From Candidatus Poribacteria bacterium (GTDB lineage Bacteria; Poribacteria; WGA-4E; UBA9662): a stretch of 64,000 nucleotides of DNA. The notes below the pieces were generated by a model. It worked only from the letters and a program-made list of their open reading frames with translations, did no database searches and was not told the DNA's origin. Position 1 is the stretch's first letter, and each line of letters starts with the position of its first letter. A program made the position numbers and the translations under genes. Positions 33,932 to 50,485 of this stretch are shown here, in pieces. Location of the stretch: contig DTUY01000304.1 of assembly GCA_012963885.1 (NCBI GenBank), positions 1-64,000 of the forward strand, given 5' to 3'.

Positions 33932-34885
33932 TTACTGTTGGCTCGATTTGTTTCTGTTTTTAAAAACGACCCACATTATTACTGATAAACTGATAATAAT
34001 GATAATAAACCAGATGTGAAATCCCATTTCGGAATCTTGATTACTTGGTTGATTGGTATTTGCATTGACTATTTGGTTTGCTGTATCCATTTTTGTGGCC
34101 TGTTTGGGCGTTACCAGTTGCTTGCCAATTGGCTGATTCCCTGGAACTTTTGTCATTTCATCAATTAGAGACGAGGCCAATTCTTCAGTGAGTGGTGAAA
34201 TTAATTCGAATATATCCTCACCTCCAGAATCTATCCCTGTACCGGCAACCTCAGCCAGGACCTCAGATACCGCTTTAATTAGCTGTTCCGGATTGTCCGC
34301 CCGACGGTAACTATCAACAACAGTGGCTAACATATGATCTTGTTCCATGTCGACGCCGATTACATCGATCCGTATTTGTTTATGCATTATCTCTGGCGTA
34401 TACAGCCGAACTTTATCAGGGTCACTCGCTGCACCATCAGTGACAACTAATAGACGATAGCTGCCGTAGTTGTACTGTTTTTCCCGCTGTTCAAGAAGTC
34501 GGTTAGCACCAATTTTGAGGTATGTACCAAGGGGTGTTGTTCCGCCAGGTAGGGGAAAGTTAATCGCCTTAATCAAAGCCTCGTTGTCCTTTGGTCCGAG
34601 AGGATAAACCCAATGGTTTTTTACATTGGAACCACTGAAAACGAGTAGTCCAATATTGGTGCCGTCGAGAATTGTCGTTAAAACGGTTTGCAATGCTTCT
34701 TTGGCTGCATTCATCCTCGTCTTCGTTGGATCACTGCTGAATTTCTCCCCCATCGATCCCGACGCATCCAAGATAACGACAATGTTATCTGTGTGCACAT
34801 TTTCATCAGGTAAGACAGTCACAGATAAAGATACAAGGAAGGCATAGATAGTTAATAGCACCACTGGCGAGCTTGTGTTCTGCAT
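33932..34885 (-). CDS. Exported von Willebrand A domain protein with C-terminal membrane anchor
   Basis: A 317-residue protein. The signal is VVLLTIYAFLVSLSVTV, the VWA domain spans about residues 33-215 with an intact MIDAS (DASGS at 40-44, Thr in GGTTPLG, Asp in VVTDGAASD), then a linker rich in Asn, Gln and Thr, and a C-terminal helix IWFIIIIISLSVIMWVVF. It should sit in the periplasm, tethered by the tail. It is 82 bases downstream of the SBP-OmpA fusion gene on the same strand, so the two are probably co-transcribed and may act together at the envelope. Confidence 0.85.
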   Translation of the reverse strand: MQNTSSPVVLLTIYAFLVSLSVTVLPDENVHTDNIVVILDASGSMGEKFSSDPTKTRMNAAKEALQTVLTTILDGTNIGLLVFSGSNVKNHWVYPLGPKDNEALIKAINFPLPGGTTPLGTYLKIGANRLLEQREKQYNYGSYRLLVVTDGAASDPDKVRLYTPEIMHKQIRIDVIGVDMEQDHMLATVVDSYRRADNPEQLIKAVSEVLAEVAGTGIDSGGEDIFELISPLTEELASSLIDEMTKVPGNQPIGKQLVTPKQATKMDTANQIVNANTNQPSNQDSEMGFHIWFIIIIISLSVIMWVVFKNRNKSSQQ

Positions 34886-34967: not shown

Positions 34968-36815
34968 TTAGAAATCAAAATCGGCTTCAGCAACAGACTC
35001 GGAAGAGATCTTAATTAAGGCAAATTCCACACGTCGGTTTTTTCCTGCTTCCGCCGGATTAGTTGGCTTAGCAATGACAGGTTCTTTGATGCCAACTCCA
35101 ACTGGGACAATCTGTTCAGCTTCAATCCTCGCGTTTAGTCTATTGGCATAGGCAAGAATTGCTTGTTTGACAGCTTTACCTCTCTGCTCAGACAGTTTTA
35201 GACCAGCTCTCATTATTTGGTATGGTCCATCAAAGTCGCTCCCGTCATCAAATTTTTTTTGCTGAATGAGTCGAATCAATTCGGAGGTATCTTCCAAACT
35301 AAAGGGCCTACCGTTCATGAAGTACTCGTAATTCCCTCTAGTTCCCGTGCGCTTTAGAATTCCTCTTTTAATTCCGGTTTTTACCAGAGCGAACAGGACT
35401 TTCGAGGGATCGGTATGCCCTTTAATCGCTACTGCCGCGTTACCATACCGAGAAGCGAGCTCAATCACTCGATCGAATTCTTCACGATACCGGGCTTCAC
35501 TAAACGTATCTTGATTGGCCTCAAATTGAATTGTAAATGATATTAGTGTGTTGTCATCAAGAACGTCTTCTTCGCTAAATGTTTCAATTTCGGCTCTAAC
35601 CGATTCTTCTTTGAAACGTTTCCTTTGAATTGGGGTTGTAACGGTTGTTGTTAGGAAGGTTGCAAAGGTCGGCGAATTGAAATCCAAACTGGAAGGAATC
35701 AAATCGTATCTCTTTCTGGCAAATCCCCAGTTGACGGCCATGTCCAATCCATTTTTATTAAATCCTTCAAACCCGGTTACAATATTTGTAGGATCATTAA
35801 AAAATGCCATATTACCAGGTTGTCCGACAAAAGTACAATCAGCGATAAGTCCATGAGCGTCTTCATCAAGTGTTGGCAACACATCCTTCCCATAGATATC
35901 CTGCATCATTTGAAGTAGAGCCGTATACTCTTTTGATCCTCCCGATTCATAGCTCTTCTTCAACCGAATAACTTCTTCTGCCCCTTTCAGATACCCGGCA
36001 AAAAACTTTTCAATAATGCCTCTGCTCTTGTCGGAGTAGTCTTTTCGACATGCATAGACATCTGCAATCGATCGGGAGAGTGTTGCGGTACTAACCACCA
36101 ATCGTGCGCTTTTGACTGTACCTCCTGTACCGTCACCAACTGCTTGATAATCACCAACCAAGCTGAGCATATCTGGCGTAATGACAAAGCAACCGGAGAC
36201 CGTCGAATCTTTTCTGAACTTCTCTGCTGGGCTGTTTGCCCCCGTTAATTCATCCATCCAGATGATTTCCAGATCCGACTTTGGAAGCCTAGCAGTCAAC
36301 AACATATCGTACAGCATACCGATATGAGGTCCTCCCTTTTGTATGGCAATCTTTTTACCTTTTAAATCGGAGATCTTTCTGATATTAGACCTGCCGACGA
36401 AATGATCACCGGCAGACCAAGTTAACTGGCCAAAAACAACGCCCTGCGTTCTTGGGTCACGTCCAATCACTTCGCTAGCTTGGGCAATCATTCTAAACGT
36501 ACCACGCAGAATAGGAGATTTACCAGCCAGATAATCTCTGACTTGCTGCATGAAGTTATCACCTGGCACCAGCTTTAAATTTAATCCCAAACTCGCCATG
36601 ATTGAATTAGGTTGGGTGTTTAACCCTCCGTTAGCGTAGAACAGCGCCGATTCGCCTCCCCAGGTGATATAGGGAATCAACAACGGATCCTGAGATTGGA
36701 TAATTCTAACTCGAGTAGGCCCTATTTCGTCTGAGAAATATTGTTGCGCACTGGTCAGCGAAACGAAATATATCACACTCAGTAAAACAACGATAATCAA
36801 CCTCTTTAAAGGCAT
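34968..36815 (-). CDS. Exported substrate-binding protein fused to an OmpA-like domain
   Basis: A 615-residue periplasmic protein. The signal is RLIIVVLLSVIYFVSLTSA. An NMT1/THI5-like type 2 substrate-binding fold covers about residues 30-400 (DLKGKKIAIQKGGPHIGMLY, FFNDPTNIVTGFEGFNKN). A C-terminal OmpA-like peptidoglycan-binding domain covers about residues 425-610 (IQFEANQDTFSEARY, VAIKGHTDPSK, LSEQRGKAVKQAI, GKNRRVEFALIK). The Asp of GHTD and the Arg of LSxxR, which contact diaminopimelate in OmpA, are kept. About 50 residues are inserted between them. No transporter subunits are adjacent. A second SBP-OmpA fusion occurs at 47129-48691 in the ABC/PspA cluster. Confidence 0.85.
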   Translation of the reverse strand: MPLKRLIIVVLLSVIYFVSLTSAQQYFSDEIGPTRVRIIQSQDPLLIPYITWGGESALFYANGGLNTQPNSIMASLGLNLKLVPGDNFMQQVRDYLAGKSPILRGTFRMIAQASEVIGRDPRTQGVVFGQLTWSAGDHFVGRSNIRKISDLKGKKIAIQKGGPHIGMLYDMLLTARLPKSDLEIIWMDELTGANSPAEKFRKDSTVSGCFVITPDMLSLVGDYQAVGDGTGGTVKSARLVVSTATLSRSIADVYACRKDYSDKSRGIIEKFFAGYLKGAEEVIRLKKSYESGGSKEYTALLQMMQDIYGKDVLPTLDEDAHGLIADCTFVGQPGNMAFFNDPTNIVTGFEGFNKNGLDMAVNWGFARKRYDLIPSSLDFNSPTFATFLTTTVTTPIQRKRFKEESVRAEIETFSEEDVLDDNTLISFTIQFEANQDTFSEARYREEFDRVIELASRYGNAAVAIKGHTDPSKVLFALVKTGIKRGILKRTGTRGNYEYFMNGRPFSLEDTSELIRLIQQKKFDDGSDFDGPYQIMRAGLKLSEQRGKAVKQAILAYANRLNARIEAEQIVPVGVGIKEPVIAKPTNPAEAGKNRRVEFALIKISSESVAEADFDF

Positions 36816-38402: not shown

Positions 38403-40700
38403 TCAGTTTTCAATATCACGTGCGCAACGGAAACCGACCCAGGAAATCATTTGATCAGGTAGCAGCGGAAACCTCGCGGTTGTTCTCACACTTCTCGGAT
38501 TTAGACTCTTCCATGATCCACCACGGACTATCTTTGCTTTCCCAGGAACTTTCTTTGGTGTGACCCACTCCGCCACGTTTCCGGCTAAATCATGTATGCC
38601 CAACGGATTTGCACCTCTGGGGTAACTCCCTACTGGAACTGGTGCTTTAGATCTATAATTTAGTAGATTCCTGTCAGGAGGCTGGTTCCCCCAAGGAAAT
38701 AGACGCTGATTATTACCTCGAGCAATCCATTCCCACTCAGTCTCAGTCAATAAACGTTTACCTGCCCATTCTGCATAAGTTTGTGCACCGTACCAACTCA
38801 CGCCTACAACCGGGTGCCTTTCAAAGACGGATTGGACTTGATATCCATTGCTGGTTTTCTCAATCTTCGTGGCCTGAGAGTCAAGGCTAATTAACACTCT
38901 ACCATCTGTATCGACGACACGCTGATAACTGTTCAAAAAGCTGACGTACTCCGCGTTTGTAACTTCAAACCGATCAACATCAAATGCTAAGGTAAAAACT
39001 GTATTGCCTGATTTTTCTGAAATGTCACTGTCTATACCAATCACAAAATTACTTTCAGGAACCCGAATCATCTGGTCAGGCGGTCGCAGATCAACCTGCG
39101 TATTCTCTGCCGGTTGCTCCTCAGGTTGCTCTATGTTGAACACAACAATAGTAATCGGAAGTTTGGTGTCAAGTTCGCCATCGCTAACTGTCAACGTGAC
39201 TGGGATTTCAGTTTTAAGGTCTTCAGTAGACACAAAATCAAACGATGGTTCCCAGCGAATTCGATTCTTATCAAACTGAGCATCGCTTGGTAAATCCGTT
39301 GCGGTATAGGTGAGCGGATCGCCATTTCGATCATATGCCTGTACCTTGGTATCAAGCACTTCTCCTTCATTGACTGTTAATTTTGGTGTTGGAACTTCTC
39401 GTACCATAAACGCACCGATTTGGGTGAAGACTGGCGCAACGTTGATGGATTGCACCTCAATATCAAGATCAAGGGAGGTTGAGCGACCATCTTTCGTTTC
39501 TGCTAAAAATCTGATATTCTTTTCTCCGATCTGAGAGAAATCGGGTGTCCATCGAAACAGATTGCGGTTTGAATCAAAGTTGGTGTTATCGATCGGCGTA
39601 AATAACCGTATCATCGCTGATATTGAACAGTCGACTTGGATTTCGATAGTCTCTCCTACTGCGACAACATAAGGTGGTAGAGGAGTTGCCTTCAACACCA
39701 ATCTCTTTGGCTTTTTAGCCAACACCTGAGTCTTTTTCGGCTTTACTTGTTTTGCTATACTTCTCCTTCGGACTTCGCCACCAAGCCAAATTTTCCCCTC
39801 AGCAGTTGCAAAGGCAAATTGCTTGCCATTGCCCGCACAAGCCAGATTTTGAATAGGCGAATTAACTTGTTTGTATCGATATGTTTTTGTTATCCGGTTA
39901 GCTGATAGATTCCATACTTGTATTGTGTTATCAGATGATGCAGAAACAGCAACGTTAGGTTGACGTGCAAAACAGAAGCTTACAATTTTATCGTCATATT
40001 CCATCAGATTGCGCATGTCGCCTGTTTGACAGTCTCTTACCTCTACAATGTTATTACGGACAAGTGCCATTTGGTCGCCTAAAGGGCTGAACGCCATCAT
40101 ATTCATATTAACATCAGATCCGTTTATACCTTCCCACAATGTTTTTCTGAAACTGTGGAAACTGATTTTATTATTATGGCGAATTACGAATTGATGCTTG
40201 CTTGTTGGGATGAAACGGAGCTCTGTCACATAACTGTAATTCGCACCAATGACTTGCTTCGGTTTGGTTTGTCCAATATTAAATTTCAAAAGTGTTCCAT
40301 CAATCAAACCAACGTATAGTCCTGAAGATATGAACCAAATATCAGCGATTTCTTTTTTAATCTGTTCTGCTTGAATAGTGAATACTTTTTTTTGTCCTTG
40401 GATATCCCAGACGTGGATTGTACCAGTGCTTACAAGAACTGCAATCCAGTGTCTCTTTACTTCAAAGGCAACTTGTTTAGATACGTCGGGAAGCCGAATT
40501 GCGAAAATCCTCTTTCGCTTTTTAGTGTTATATAAATTCACACCACTGGAGGTAGTAGCCGCAATAATCTCATCATCGGCACTATAGTATAAGCCATGAA
40601 CTTTTTGGCGAGTTCCATCAATTAGGATTTGTGAGTCTGCCTCAAATTCCATGACTGTAAAGAAACAGAGAAACAGAAAAAGAACGAGAATCCTATGCAT
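38403..40700 (-). CDS. Exported beta-propeller / Ig-like / FGE-sulfatase-fold protein
   Basis: A 765-residue exported protein. The signal is ILVLFLFLCFFTVMEFEADS, then a WD40-like propeller (about residues 25-310; WDIQGQKKVF, ASASSDNTIQVWN). Two cadherin/Ig-like domains follow (about residues 325-530; GDPLTYTATDLPSDAQFDK). Last is a formylglycine-generating-enzyme-fold domain (about residues 545-760; FDVDRFEVTNAEYVSFLN, PVVGVSWYGAQTYAEWAGKR, GIHDLAGNVAEWV, RGGSW). The active-site cysteines of true FGE are missing from RGGSWKSLNPRSVRTTARF, so it is probably a non-catalytic or different-activity relative. A surface binding role is possible. Confidence 0.85.
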   Translation of the reverse strand: MHRILVLFLFLCFFTVMEFEADSQILIDGTRQKVHGLYYSADDEIIAATTSSGVNLYNTKKRKRIFAIRLPDVSKQVAFEVKRHWIAVLVSTGTIHVWDIQGQKKVFTIQAEQIKKEIADIWFISSGLYVGLIDGTLLKFNIGQTKPKQVIGANYSYVTELRFIPTSKHQFVIRHNNKISFHSFRKTLWEGINGSDVNMNMMAFSPLGDQMALVRNNIVEVRDCQTGDMRNLMEYDDKIVSFCFARQPNVAVSASSDNTIQVWNLSANRITKTYRYKQVNSPIQNLACAGNGKQFAFATAEGKIWLGGEVRRRSIAKQVKPKKTQVLAKKPKRLVLKATPLPPYVVAVGETIEIQVDCSISAMIRLFTPIDNTNFDSNRNLFRWTPDFSQIGEKNIRFLAETKDGRSTSLDLDIEVQSINVAPVFTQIGAFMVREVPTPKLTVNEGEVLDTKVQAYDRNGDPLTYTATDLPSDAQFDKNRIRWEPSFDFVSTEDLKTEIPVTLTVSDGELDTKLPITIVVFNIEQPEEQPAENTQVDLRPPDQMIRVPESNFVIGIDSDISEKSGNTVFTLAFDVDRFEVTNAEYVSFLNSYQRVVDTDGRVLISLDSQATKIEKTSNGYQVQSVFERHPVVGVSWYGAQTYAEWAGKRLLTETEWEWIARGNNQRLFPWGNQPPDRNLLNYRSKAPVPVGSYPRGANPLGIHDLAGNVAEWVTPKKVPGKAKIVRGGSWKSLNPRSVRTTARFPLLPDQMISWVGFRCARDIEN

Positions 40701-47128: not shown

Positions 47129-48691
47129 TTATCTGTCTTTGACCAGCACAAATTCAGTACGTTGGTTTCGTTCCAACCAATCAGCATAAGCCTCATTTTG
47201 GTCGCGTTCGAGTGGTTCTCTGTCACCATGAGCGACAGTATTAATCCGGCTGCCTTGAACACTGTGTTCTCGAACCAGATACTGGGCAATTGATCCAGCG
47301 CGTTTCCTGGAGAGGTCCATGTTGATCTGGGATGAACCGGTAGGAGATGAGTAACCATGCAGGACCAAACGGTAGTTCGGATAGTGGAGAAGAGTATCGG
47401 AAAATTTATCAACAACTAGTTTCGACTGTTGACTTAACTTTGCCGAACCGCTACCGAAGTAGATGGGATCAACTCTCATTTCACCGATGCGTTGAGTTTT
47501 ACTTTCAATCTCCTCGGCTTTCATCCTGGTAAATTGCCGCTTAGTCTCAACTGGTGGCGGTGCCACCTCTTTTTCTGGCATGCCTTTGATTTGAGGTGCC
47601 GCACTCGGGGTCAACTGGCTGAGAAAATCCTTATTCACTATCCAATATGCTCCACCGGGTTTGCTGGCAAATGGGTCTGTCATCAATTTATCATGAAATT
47701 GTTGAACACTAATTGTATCTTCAATAACCTTTGCAATCTTGTCAGTGGCAGTCTGACCTATGCCAAACCAGAGGTGATGGTTTTCCCTCAGATCGATAAA
47801 GTCGATACCATTCATGATGTTTTTCGCCACTGATTGATCAACCCCTCCATCTTCCGCTAGATACTGGATGAATTCAGATTCTCGTTTTTGGTAATAATCA
47901 AGCGTCTTAAAATATGCGCGAGTCACTTTCTGTACAACTTGTGGATTGCTTGTAACGATTTGGCGTGAGGCGATGCAGACATCGATGATAATGTCATCAC
48001 TATCTTTGGTGCTGGTTAATAAGGTGTAGCCTTCCTGAATAGCACGTGATGTTTCAGGTTCCCATACAACTGCTGCCTCAACCTGTCCTTGTTTCAACAT
48101 TTGGTAGGATTTCTCTGAAAGTCCATCAGTCACCGGCATACGCTTAATGCTAAGAATGTCGAAGTGTGTCAATGTGACATCTAATAGATGTTCACTGGGG
48201 AAACCTTTCGAGTAGGAGACCTTTGCACCCTCTAAATCGTCTAGAGCTTGAATTTTTGAACTGGCGACAACCGAATCGCCACCGTTGGATTCATCTACCA
48301 AAAAGATAATAACGCCTGGATAGTTCAAGTTGATGGCATTGAGTGTATAGCCGTCGATTGTGGCGACCACAAAATCATATTTGCCATTGACCAATCCTTG
48401 AAAACGTTTTTCCAGATCTTCCTCTGTTTCATAGCGGTAACCAATCTGAAGTTGGGAAAGAACCGTACGGAATCGATCGGAGCGAAAGAGACTATAACCA
48501 GACCACGGATCACCGGCAACGGTGATATTGGTATCGAAACGACCACCGCTACTGGCTTGATCGTATTTTTTCGCTTGTTGGTTTTCTTGAAGTTTGGGAA
48601 TCACATATTTGTAAGCAAGGCCACCGATGACAGCTGTAAGAATAACGAGTATCATAAAGATCCGGCCAAGTGCCAATTTTTGTTCCGCCAT
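47129..48691 (-). CDS. Membrane-anchored substrate-binding protein fused to an OmpA-like domain
   Basis: A 520-residue protein. One membrane helix near the N-terminus (about residues 9-27, IFMILVILTAVIGGLAYK) tethers it. A type 2 substrate-binding fold covers about residues 55-350 (DLEGAKVSYSKGFPSEHLL, QGQVEAAVVWEPETSRAI). A proline-rich linker is followed by the OmpA-like domain (about residues 405-518: PIYFGSGSAKLSQQSKLVVD, INMDLSRKRAGSIAQYLV, RNQRTEFVLV). The Arg of LSxxRA is kept, but the usual GHxD is GYSS, so peptidoglycan binding may be altered. It could tie the transporter to the cell wall. AGGAG precedes its ATG. Confidence 0.88.
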   Translation of the reverse strand: MAEQKLALGRIFMILVILTAVIGGLAYKYVIPKLQENQQAKKYDQASSGGRFDTNITVAGDPWSGYSLFRSDRFRTVLSQLQIGYRYETEEDLEKRFQGLVNGKYDFVVATIDGYTLNAINLNYPGVIIFLVDESNGGDSVVASSKIQALDDLEGAKVSYSKGFPSEHLLDVTLTHFDILSIKRMPVTDGLSEKSYQMLKQGQVEAAVVWEPETSRAIQEGYTLLTSTKDSDDIIIDVCIASRQIVTSNPQVVQKVTRAYFKTLDYYQKRESEFIQYLAEDGGVDQSVAKNIMNGIDFIDLRENHHLWFGIGQTATDKIAKVIEDTISVQQFHDKLMTDPFASKPGGAYWIVNKDFLSQLTPSAAPQIKGMPEKEVAPPPVETKRQFTRMKAEEIESKTQRIGEMRVDPIYFGSGSAKLSQQSKLVVDKFSDTLLHYPNYRLVLHGYSSPTGSSQINMDLSRKRAGSIAQYLVREHSVQGSRINTVAHGDREPLERDQNEAYADWLERNQRTEFVLVKDR

Positions 48692-49618: not shown

Positions 49619-50470
49619 TTATTCTGATTCACTCGGTTTGGGTTGCCCGAGAAATTTTACCACTTCCGCGCACTTAGCCTCGTAGTCATTTAGAATGCTA
49701 ATATCCTGGTTGAATTTATGGATTAAAGCCTGTTTCCTAGCTCGAAGCTCATTTAGACTATTCTGTCGATTTTCTTCCAGATCCTGGATTCTCATGTCCA
49801 TTTCTGCTTTCAACTGATCTATTTCCTGATTGGTTTCCTGTTCAATCTGTTTCATATCGTCCTCGGTTTGTTGAACCTGTGCATGGTGTTCTTGCTGATA
49901 GCTTTCTTCAAACTCTTCGCAAATTGCTCCTTTTTGCAGAGCATCCTGAACGATATCCTCAACAGACTTGCCTGAAACTTTGATAACAGGCGGTAGACTT
50001 TCTTTTGGGACACCTTCTTCAATGAGTTGCATTACTTTTTCAACTGAGTATTCACCACTATCTAGCTCCCAATTGCGATCAATTCCACCAGCTGTCAGAA
50101 TTTTATCAATATCTATTCTGCTCTCATCATCATCGAACTCACCTGCGGGTAGGTCAAATAATATCTGAGAAACAGCACTATCAACAGAACTCAAGTCTTC
50201 TTGATTAATAATTTCATCTGGCCCCTCTGAGGTTTCGAAGTTTCTGTTTTCTTCGTTTATTTTTTCCAGAAAAGGGTTTGGTTCATCATTATTATGCCCA
50301 GTTTCAGTGGGATCCTGTAGAAAAGGATTTGATTCATTTTGACTTTCATCTGTATCTTCAGGGAAATCCACCAAGAAAGGATTTGGTTCGTTATCGGTGT
50401 CCTGATTCTCATCTTTTTCTGGCTTTTCTGTCTCAACAGTTTTATAAAAAAGCTTTTTTATAAAGCCCAT
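49619..50470 (-). CDS. Acidic NPFL-repeat coiled-coil protein, first gene of the PspA cluster
   Basis: A 283-residue soluble protein of unknown family. It begins MGFIKKLFYKTVE, a short amphipathic helix like that of PspA. Residues about 15-85 are strongly acidic and hold three copies of an N-P-F-L motif about 22 residues apart (EPNPFLVDF, ESNPFLQDP, EPNPFLEKI). A second part (about 130-185) is compact (RIDIDKILTAGGIDRNWEL), and the last 90 residues are coiled coil. The ATG at 50470 fits the 5' leader from the promoter and the amphipathic start; an in-frame ATG also lies at 50485. It could be a membrane-recruited partner of PspA. Confidence 0.75.
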   Translation of the reverse strand: MGFIKKLFYKTVETEKPEKDENQDTDNEPNPFLVDFPEDTDESQNESNPFLQDPTETGHNNDEPNPFLEKINEENRNFETSEGPDEIINQEDLSSVDSAVSQILFDLPAGEFDDDESRIDIDKILTAGGIDRNWELDSGEYSVEKVMQLIEEGVPKESLPPVIKVSGKSVEDIVQDALQKGAICEEFEESYQQEHHAQVQQTEDDMKQIEQETNQEIDQLKAEMDMRIQDLEENRQNSLNELRARKQALIHKFNQDISILNDYEAKCAEVVKFLGQPKPSESE

Positions 50471-50485
50471 ATGCCATTCAGCCAA

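Follow-up and report, generated by a model that had tools for sequence, protein, structure and literature searches.

A membrane-anchored binding-protein/OmpA fusion in Candidatus Poribacteria, a possible ligand sensor or scaffold with relatives on Vibrio megaplasmids and in huge phages

In the window, i.e., the whole stretch of 64,000 nucleotides from a Candidatus Poribacteria genome that was analysed, a run of minus-strand genes extends from position 50485 to 41491 (Table 1) and codes, in this order, for an acidic coiled-coil protein, a PspA-like protein, a membrane-anchored fusion of a substrate-binding protein with an OmpA domain (TM-SBP-OmpA), a second binding protein (SBP2), an ABC permease, an ABC ATPase, a membrane coiled-coil protein, and an AAA ATPase. 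Farther down the same strand follow a WD40-FGE protein, DapB, a Coq4-like protein, and then a secreted SBP-OmpA and a VWA protein, the last two being situated about 10 kb downstream of the fusion with DapB and other genes in between. The WD40-FGE protein (38403-40700) consists of WD40-like repeats and an FGE (sulfatase-modifying-factor) domain behind a signal-like N-terminus; it is encoded inside the cluster and has no known link to it. The gaps from the fusion to SBP2, permease, and ATPase amount to 19, -4, and 6 bp. Promoter and terminator scans of the window gave results no better than those for shuffled sequences, so that the putative transcription unit is defined by spacing alone. The original prediction had placed the fusion in an ABC operon next to a second, free binding protein. 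SBP2 is indeed that protein and the ABC context is right; what had been missed are the PspA-like, AAA, VWA, and secreted SBP-OmpA genes.

Table 1. Position of the fusion gene, its parts, and its neighbours in the window.
Feature	Position	Strand	Evidence
TM-SBP-OmpA, membrane-anchored binding-protein/OmpA fusion, 520 aa, ATG start	47129-48691	minus	ORF, Pfam, AlphaFold, Foldseek
N-terminal membrane helix of TM-SBP-OmpA (predicted), about residues 6-28	48608-48676	minus	hydropathy, AlphaFold model
SsuA/TauA-type ligand-binding domain, about residues 54-330 (confident 54-295)	47702-48532	minus	Pfam NMT1, NCBIfam SsuA_fam, Foldseek
OmpA-like domain, residues 401-519	47135-47491	minus	Pfam OmpA, PDB matches
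GYSS, residues 446-449, in place of GHTD (Asp replaced by Ser449)	47345-47356	minus	alignments
Arg464, kept Arg of the OmpA site (LSRKRA)	47300-47302	minus	22/22 in alignment
Acidic/coiled-coil protein, 288 aa, first gene of the run	49619-50485	minus	ORF
PspA/IM30-like protein, 254 aa	48804-49568	minus	Pfam PspA_IM30, 25.9 bits (cut-off 33.9)
SBP2, secreted SsuA-type binding protein, 330 aa, TTG start, closest to TIGR03427	46117-47109	minus	profiles
ABC permease, 273 aa	45299-46120	minus	BPD_transp_1 (Pfam)
ABC ATPase, TauB/SsuB/NrtD type, 294 aa	44408-45292	minus	profiles
Membrane coiled-coil protein, 278 aa	43433-44269	minus	alignment with 2-TM coiled-coil relatives
AAA ATPase, 572 aa	41491-43209	minus	Pfam AAA (318-442), phylum survey
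Secreted SBP-OmpA, 615 aa; Asp469 (35409-35411) and Arg545 (35181-35183) kept	34968-36815	minus	alignment, model
VWA protein, 317 aa, hydrophobic segment at each end	33932-34885	minus	Pfam VWA, hydropathy

A single hydrophobic segment is found in TM-SBP-OmpA by hydropathy (residues 6-24), and the AlphaFold model places a helix at residues 2-45. As neither a lipobox nor a cleavage signal is seen at the N-terminus on inspection by eye, a single-pass anchor is the simplest reading, and the protein is predicted to consist of one N-terminal helix in the inner membrane with both domains in the periplasm. The model, built with 22 sequences (mean pLDDT 72.6), comprises two confident domains at about residues 54-295 and 401-519 and a low-confidence, disordered region at residues 336-389. 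In Foldseek searches, the first domain matches E. coli TauA (E 3.7e-17, target TM-score 0.80) as well as SsuA (0.70-0.78). TauA and SsuA share this fold but are free periplasmic proteins of about 16% identity to TM-SBP-OmpA that possess neither a membrane helix nor an OmpA domain. The Pfam family NMT1 is matched by residues 130-268 (E 3e-6, 27.7 bits, cut-off 20.5), and SsuA_fam (TIGR01728) of NCBIfam with 55.6 bits (E 4.6e-15), under the curated cut-off of 163.5. Because the NCBIfam scores are under the cut-offs, the binding domain seems to be a superfamily member, the ligand of which is not assignable from profiles. In the Poribacteria alignment the cleft-type motifs S-x-G-x-D and W-x-P are kept, which suggests that the domain may still bind a ligand. 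For the second domain, OmpA (PF00691) is matched by residues 411-500 (E 1.3e-16, 61.2 bits, cut-off 27.2), and sequence searches identify YiaD, OprF, Rv0899, and A. baumannii OmpA as relatives. The original prediction of a membrane helix, a substrate-binding domain, and an OmpA domain, for which structure prediction had been named as a check, thus agrees with hydropathy, Pfam, AlphaFold, and Foldseek.

The neighbours of the fusion differ in how well profiles define them. A homologue of the PspA-like protein, encoded beside a relative of the fusion, attains 35.9 bits and is over the PspA_IM30 cut-off of 33.9. In the AAA ATPase, the Pfam match is confined to the C-terminal AAA domain (318-442). 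SBP2 scores 273.2 bits with TIGR03427, a putative urea-type binding protein, under the cut-off of 333.9, and its profile matches the binding domain of TM-SBP-OmpA with an E of 1e-17 (hhalign). For the secreted SBP-OmpA the structure model is less confident; it likewise matches SsuA/TauA. In the VWA protein the MIDAS residues D40, S42, S44, T117, and D150 are intact and invariant in 12 sequences. Profile comparison by hhalign does not support homology of the 278-aa membrane coiled coil to PspA (probability 1.9), nor of the 288-aa protein to the phage coiled coils that occupy the same place.

Operons with PspA, Snf7-TM, and AAA+ genes that also contain an ABC ATPase, a permease, and a PBPB-OmpA protein, for example OGG56892.1, are described in passages of Ravi et al. 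(2024, mSystems, PMC11237479). The window shares with the operons of these passages the AAA protein, the ABC ATPase, the permease, and the binding-protein-OmpA fusion; its PspA-like protein, under the Pfam cut-off, and its membrane coiled coil are putative counterparts of the PspA and Snf7-TM genes. The AAA protein of the published operons has an inactive N-terminal AAA copy. The combination by which such an operon is recognized, a PBPB-OmpA protein beside an ABC ATPase, a permease, and an AAA ATPase, is found in it. By its sequence and gene content, TM-SBP-OmpA is a further member of this published fusion and operon type. As fusion and operon have been published, and as NCBI already names such proteins, the novelty that had been claimed for an unusual fusion does not hold. 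The main text of Ravi et al. (2024) mentions neither VWA nor Poribacteria, and the secreted second SBP-OmpA, the Asp loss, the TelA swap, and the phage copies treated below are absent from the passages of that article considered here.

TM-SBP-OmpA belongs to the same sequence family as the C-terminal domains of A. baumannii OmpA, Pal, MotB, and YiaD and shares their conserved Arg, but possesses a Ser instead of their diaminopimelate-binding Asp. In A. baumannii OmpA, D271 and R286 are needed for diaminopimelate binding (PMC6572160). Ser449 aligns to the Asp of GHTD/GYTD in OmpA domains of known structure, and the change from GHxD to GYSS with retention of the Arg of LSxxRA (R464), as first noticed in the sequence, is therefore confirmed. 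Among 22 aligned membrane-anchored copies from Poribacteria, the Asp column contains Arg in 18, Ser in two, Ala in one, Gly in one, and Asp in none. The Arg and Asn of the site are invariant in all 22, the Gly is also kept, and the C-terminal NRR motif is degenerate. The secreted SBP-OmpAs keep both Asp and Arg in 17 of 17 aligned Poribacteria sequences. As Asp is absent from every membrane-anchored and present in every secreted Poribacteria copy that was aligned, wall binding is probably carried out by the secreted partner and not by TM-SBP-OmpA. It had been proposed that the fusion could span from membrane to wall and that its wall binding may be altered. As a true tether, its OmpA domain would still bind peptidoglycan, by an altered site chemistry. 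The fold, the invariant Arg, Asn, and Gly, a flexible linker of about 60 residues ahead of the OmpA domain, and the Asp of some phage homologues are in favor of such a tether. The Asp that contacts diaminopimelate is, however, missing in all 22 Poribacteria copies and in those of Vibrio, with an Arg in its place in 18 of the 22, and three further OmpA domains, the only others found in this genome, have retained an Asp in the equivalent motif (GHTD, SHSD, and GHAD). This weakens the tether as the main reading, and we consider it unlikely.

Judged by a copy of 90% identity and by homologues throughout the phylum, TM-SBP-OmpA is not a chance open reading frame. The 90% identical copy, the only near one in a scan of genome contigs, is encoded in a Candidatus Poribacteria MAG of the same genus, and most of 42 further genomes from the phylum encode full-length or near-full-length homologues with 24-31% identity. 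In a survey of 85 Poribacteria-phylum genomes, the membrane-anchored fusion is encoded in 44, and a secreted SBP-OmpA in 42 of these 44 and in none of the other 41 (Fisher p 3e-22, a statistic that ignores kinship); in one of the two exceptions (G019) the contig ends near the gene. The near-constant core of the Poribacteria neighbourhoods consists of secreted SBP-OmpA, VWA protein, and TM-SBP-OmpA in this order. PspA and AAA form a second module, which in family f3 is situated elsewhere in the genome, and SBP2, permease, and ATPase form a third. In locus L048 (5178-6828) and in other g4 genomes, additional PspA-like copies, some with internal stop codons, are found beside the PspA-AAA pair. 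A conserved protein of about 600 aa lacking a Pfam match (L043, 10946-12742; L048, 6944-8749) accompanies either the SBP-OmpA triad or the PspA-AAA pair.

The same survey bears on the suggestion, made for the window, that both binding proteins serve one permease. A related permease is encoded in eight of the 85 genomes, six of which have the fusion (p 0.27). The remaining 38 of the 44 fusion-bearing genomes, single-contig ones included, lack it, and in family f3, where the fusion occurs in 38 of 59 genomes, a related permease is found in none of them. In genomes assembled into one or a few contigs, the best permease match reaches about 22% identity at an E no better than 3e-9. Other ABC permeases are present in those genomes, and service in trans is possible. 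Shared service of one permease is thus possible in the window and not general in the phylum. TM-SBP-OmpA might be an extra delivery protein, held in the membrane in order to capture ligand near the adjacent transporter alongside SBP2, a reading close to what is suggested in passages of Ravi et al. (2024, PMC11237479). The ABC genes directly follow the fusion at the short spacings given above, they are part of the gene set in Vibrio, huge phages, and some Poribacteria, and in Lak-type phages the SBP-OmpA is the sole binding protein beside permease and ATPase. The 38 genomes lacking a related permease speak against it and weaken a simple permease partnership as a general role. In addition, SBP2 accompanies the permease in every Poribacteria locus examined and its profile matches the binding domain of the fusion, so that a dedicated delivery protein seems to exist already. 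Delivery by TM-SBP-OmpA is, in our estimate, rather doubtful.

Full-length homologues of the fusion, 27-29% identical, are encoded on the megaplasmids pSEA2 of V. alfacsensis, pIFO15640 of V. penaeicida, and pAM7 of V. rotiferianus. Their NCBI product name is "phosphate ABC transporter substrate-binding/OmpA family protein," and the SBP2 counterparts carry the TIGR03427 product name. The gene order is ATPase, secreted SBP-OmpA, VWA, TM-SBP-OmpA, coiled coil, TelA (identity confirmed), SBP2, and permease. These are the same neighbours as in Poribacteria loci with the whole set, but TelA stands in for PspA, the ATPase gene comes first in the operon, and the membrane-anchored copies read GHTS, thus also lacking the Asp, where the window has GYSS; the secreted copy reads GHSD. 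The Vibrio set (L060, 5550-14325; L061; L064) is situated near an RctB-type replication initiator and a PRTRC gene in L060 and L061. Neither terminase nor capsid genes were found in the Vibrio plasmid checked.

Further homologues are encoded by huge phages. The 595-kb phage LR756511.1 (L062, 6282-14844) possesses a complete eight-gene set in the order secreted SBP-OmpA, VWA, TM-SBP-OmpA, coiled coil, PspA, SBP2, permease, and ATPase. Its PspA-like protein has no Pfam match; the name is based on the place of the gene and on a likeness, judged by eye, to the sequences of PspA-like proteins in Poribacteria. In two IMG/VR contigs, of 545 and 359 kb, the set includes a TelA or TelA-like gene. In L065 (8818-10571), the secreted SBP-OmpA appears as two overlapping ORFs, possibly a frameshift or an assembly error. 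The set is shortened to membrane coiled coil, SBP-OmpA, and permease in Lak phages, a 735-kb phage, and two contigs of 362 and 85 kb; the ATPase comes next in all but the 85-kb contig. This layout was read in Lak-A2 (L063, 6088-12454) and in the 735-kb phage (L070, 4689-9524), and SBP-OmpA is present in 15 of 15 matched Lak phage records and in the 735-kb phage record LR756501. The cultured Bacillus phage G, whose host is Gram-positive, has two SBP-OmpA genes in tandem; gp243-gp250 (L069, 2926-10011) comprise these together with genes for an ABC permease, an ATPase, and coiled coils, and the annotations read ABC permease, ABC transporter, and, for gp249 and gp250, just OmpA/MotB-domain protein. 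Both terminase and capsid genes were found for LR756511, Lak-A2, and the 362-kb contig, a borderline terminase only for the 545-kb contig, a weak capsid piece only for the 359-kb contig, and neither gene for the 85-kb contig. Like the window, the phage cassettes combine a two-domain membrane-anchored protein with permease and ATPase. Unlike the window, the Lak-type cassettes lack VWA, secreted SBP-OmpA, and SBP2. A late local addition of the ABC genes had been considered and was dropped, as Vibrio plasmids and huge phages have them in the same set. No mention of the SBP-OmpA/PspA/ABC set was found in the papers on Lak and huge phages that were consulted.

At the OmpA site, the membrane-anchored and secreted copies read GNAT and GHSD in LR756511, and GHSG and GHSD in the 359-kb contig. 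In the 545-kb contig (L066, 8857-10416), the membrane-anchored copy keeps GHTD beside a secreted copy with GHSD, and the rule that Asp is always lost when a secreted partner exists was rejected. Within the full layout, Asp loss in the membrane-anchored copy is common, not universal. The sole SBP-OmpA of the Lak-type phages, examined copies of which keep the Asp (GNTD), has no secreted partner; in phage G, by contrast, gp249 reads GNVN and the motif is lost in gp250. Should the membrane-anchored copy be a decayed and dispensable duplicate of the secreted SBP-OmpA, the loss of the Asp, the degenerate NRR motif, and the 24-31% identity between lineages would be accounted for. Intact full-length ORFs in bacteria, plasmids, and phages, conservation of the Gly, Asn, and Arg and of the cleft motifs, 90% identity within the genus, and a fixed gene order make such a relic very improbable.

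We favor the reading, with a probability of roughly 0.42, that TM-SBP-OmpA is a membrane-tethered ligand sensor or scaffold and not a wall anchor or a simple uptake protein. Since in Poribacteria the Asp/Arg pair is confined to the secreted copy and SBP2 travels with the permease, wall binding would fall to the former, delivery to the latter, and sensing or scaffolding to the membrane-anchored copy. The secreted SBP-OmpA, having kept its Asp/Arg pair, would bind the wall, and TM-SBP-OmpA might sense a small sulfonate-, phosphonate-, or urea-like ligand. Its degenerate OmpA domain could meet the wall-bound secreted SBP-OmpA or the VWA protein, and its ligand state might be relayed to membrane-stabilising proteins of the PspA/TelA type at the inner membrane and, in genomes that have it, to the ABC permease, for which SBP2 is the likely delivery protein. 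Points counted for a sensor or scaffold are the order secreted SBP-OmpA, VWA, TM-SBP-OmpA in Poribacteria, Vibrio megaplasmids, and huge phages, the co-occurrence in 42 of 44 genomes, the split in Asp retention, the 38 of 44 genomes without related permease, the adjacency of PspA or TelA, and the cleft motifs. Counted against it are the GHTD of the membrane-anchored copy in L066, the single Asp-bearing SBP-OmpA of Lak-type phages, and the split of the triad in the window. Conserved synteny is linkage, not signalling.

Taken alone, the gene adds one more copy to a fusion and operon type that has been published. Of interest would be the proposed split of tasks, with a secreted copy able to bind the wall and a membrane-anchored copy unable to do so, and the recurrence of the gene set, in whole or in shortened form, on Vibrio megaplasmids and in huge phages, among them Bacillus phage G, which is in culture. 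Tentatively, both SBP-OmpAs, VWA, PspA/TelA, and an SsuABC-like ABC transporter might constitute a mobile envelope-guarding module that several lineages of the largest phages have in common with Poribacteria and Vibrio megaplasmids. In its full or shortened form, the module might serve these phages in sensing or importing a small ligand and in preserving the membrane of the infected cell over a long infection. With the phage G copies, an unassigned part of the PSP/ESCRT-III-like envelope systems becomes open to experiments in a laboratory phage. They also raise the question of why periplasmic binding proteins and an ABC importer should be encoded by very large phages themselves.
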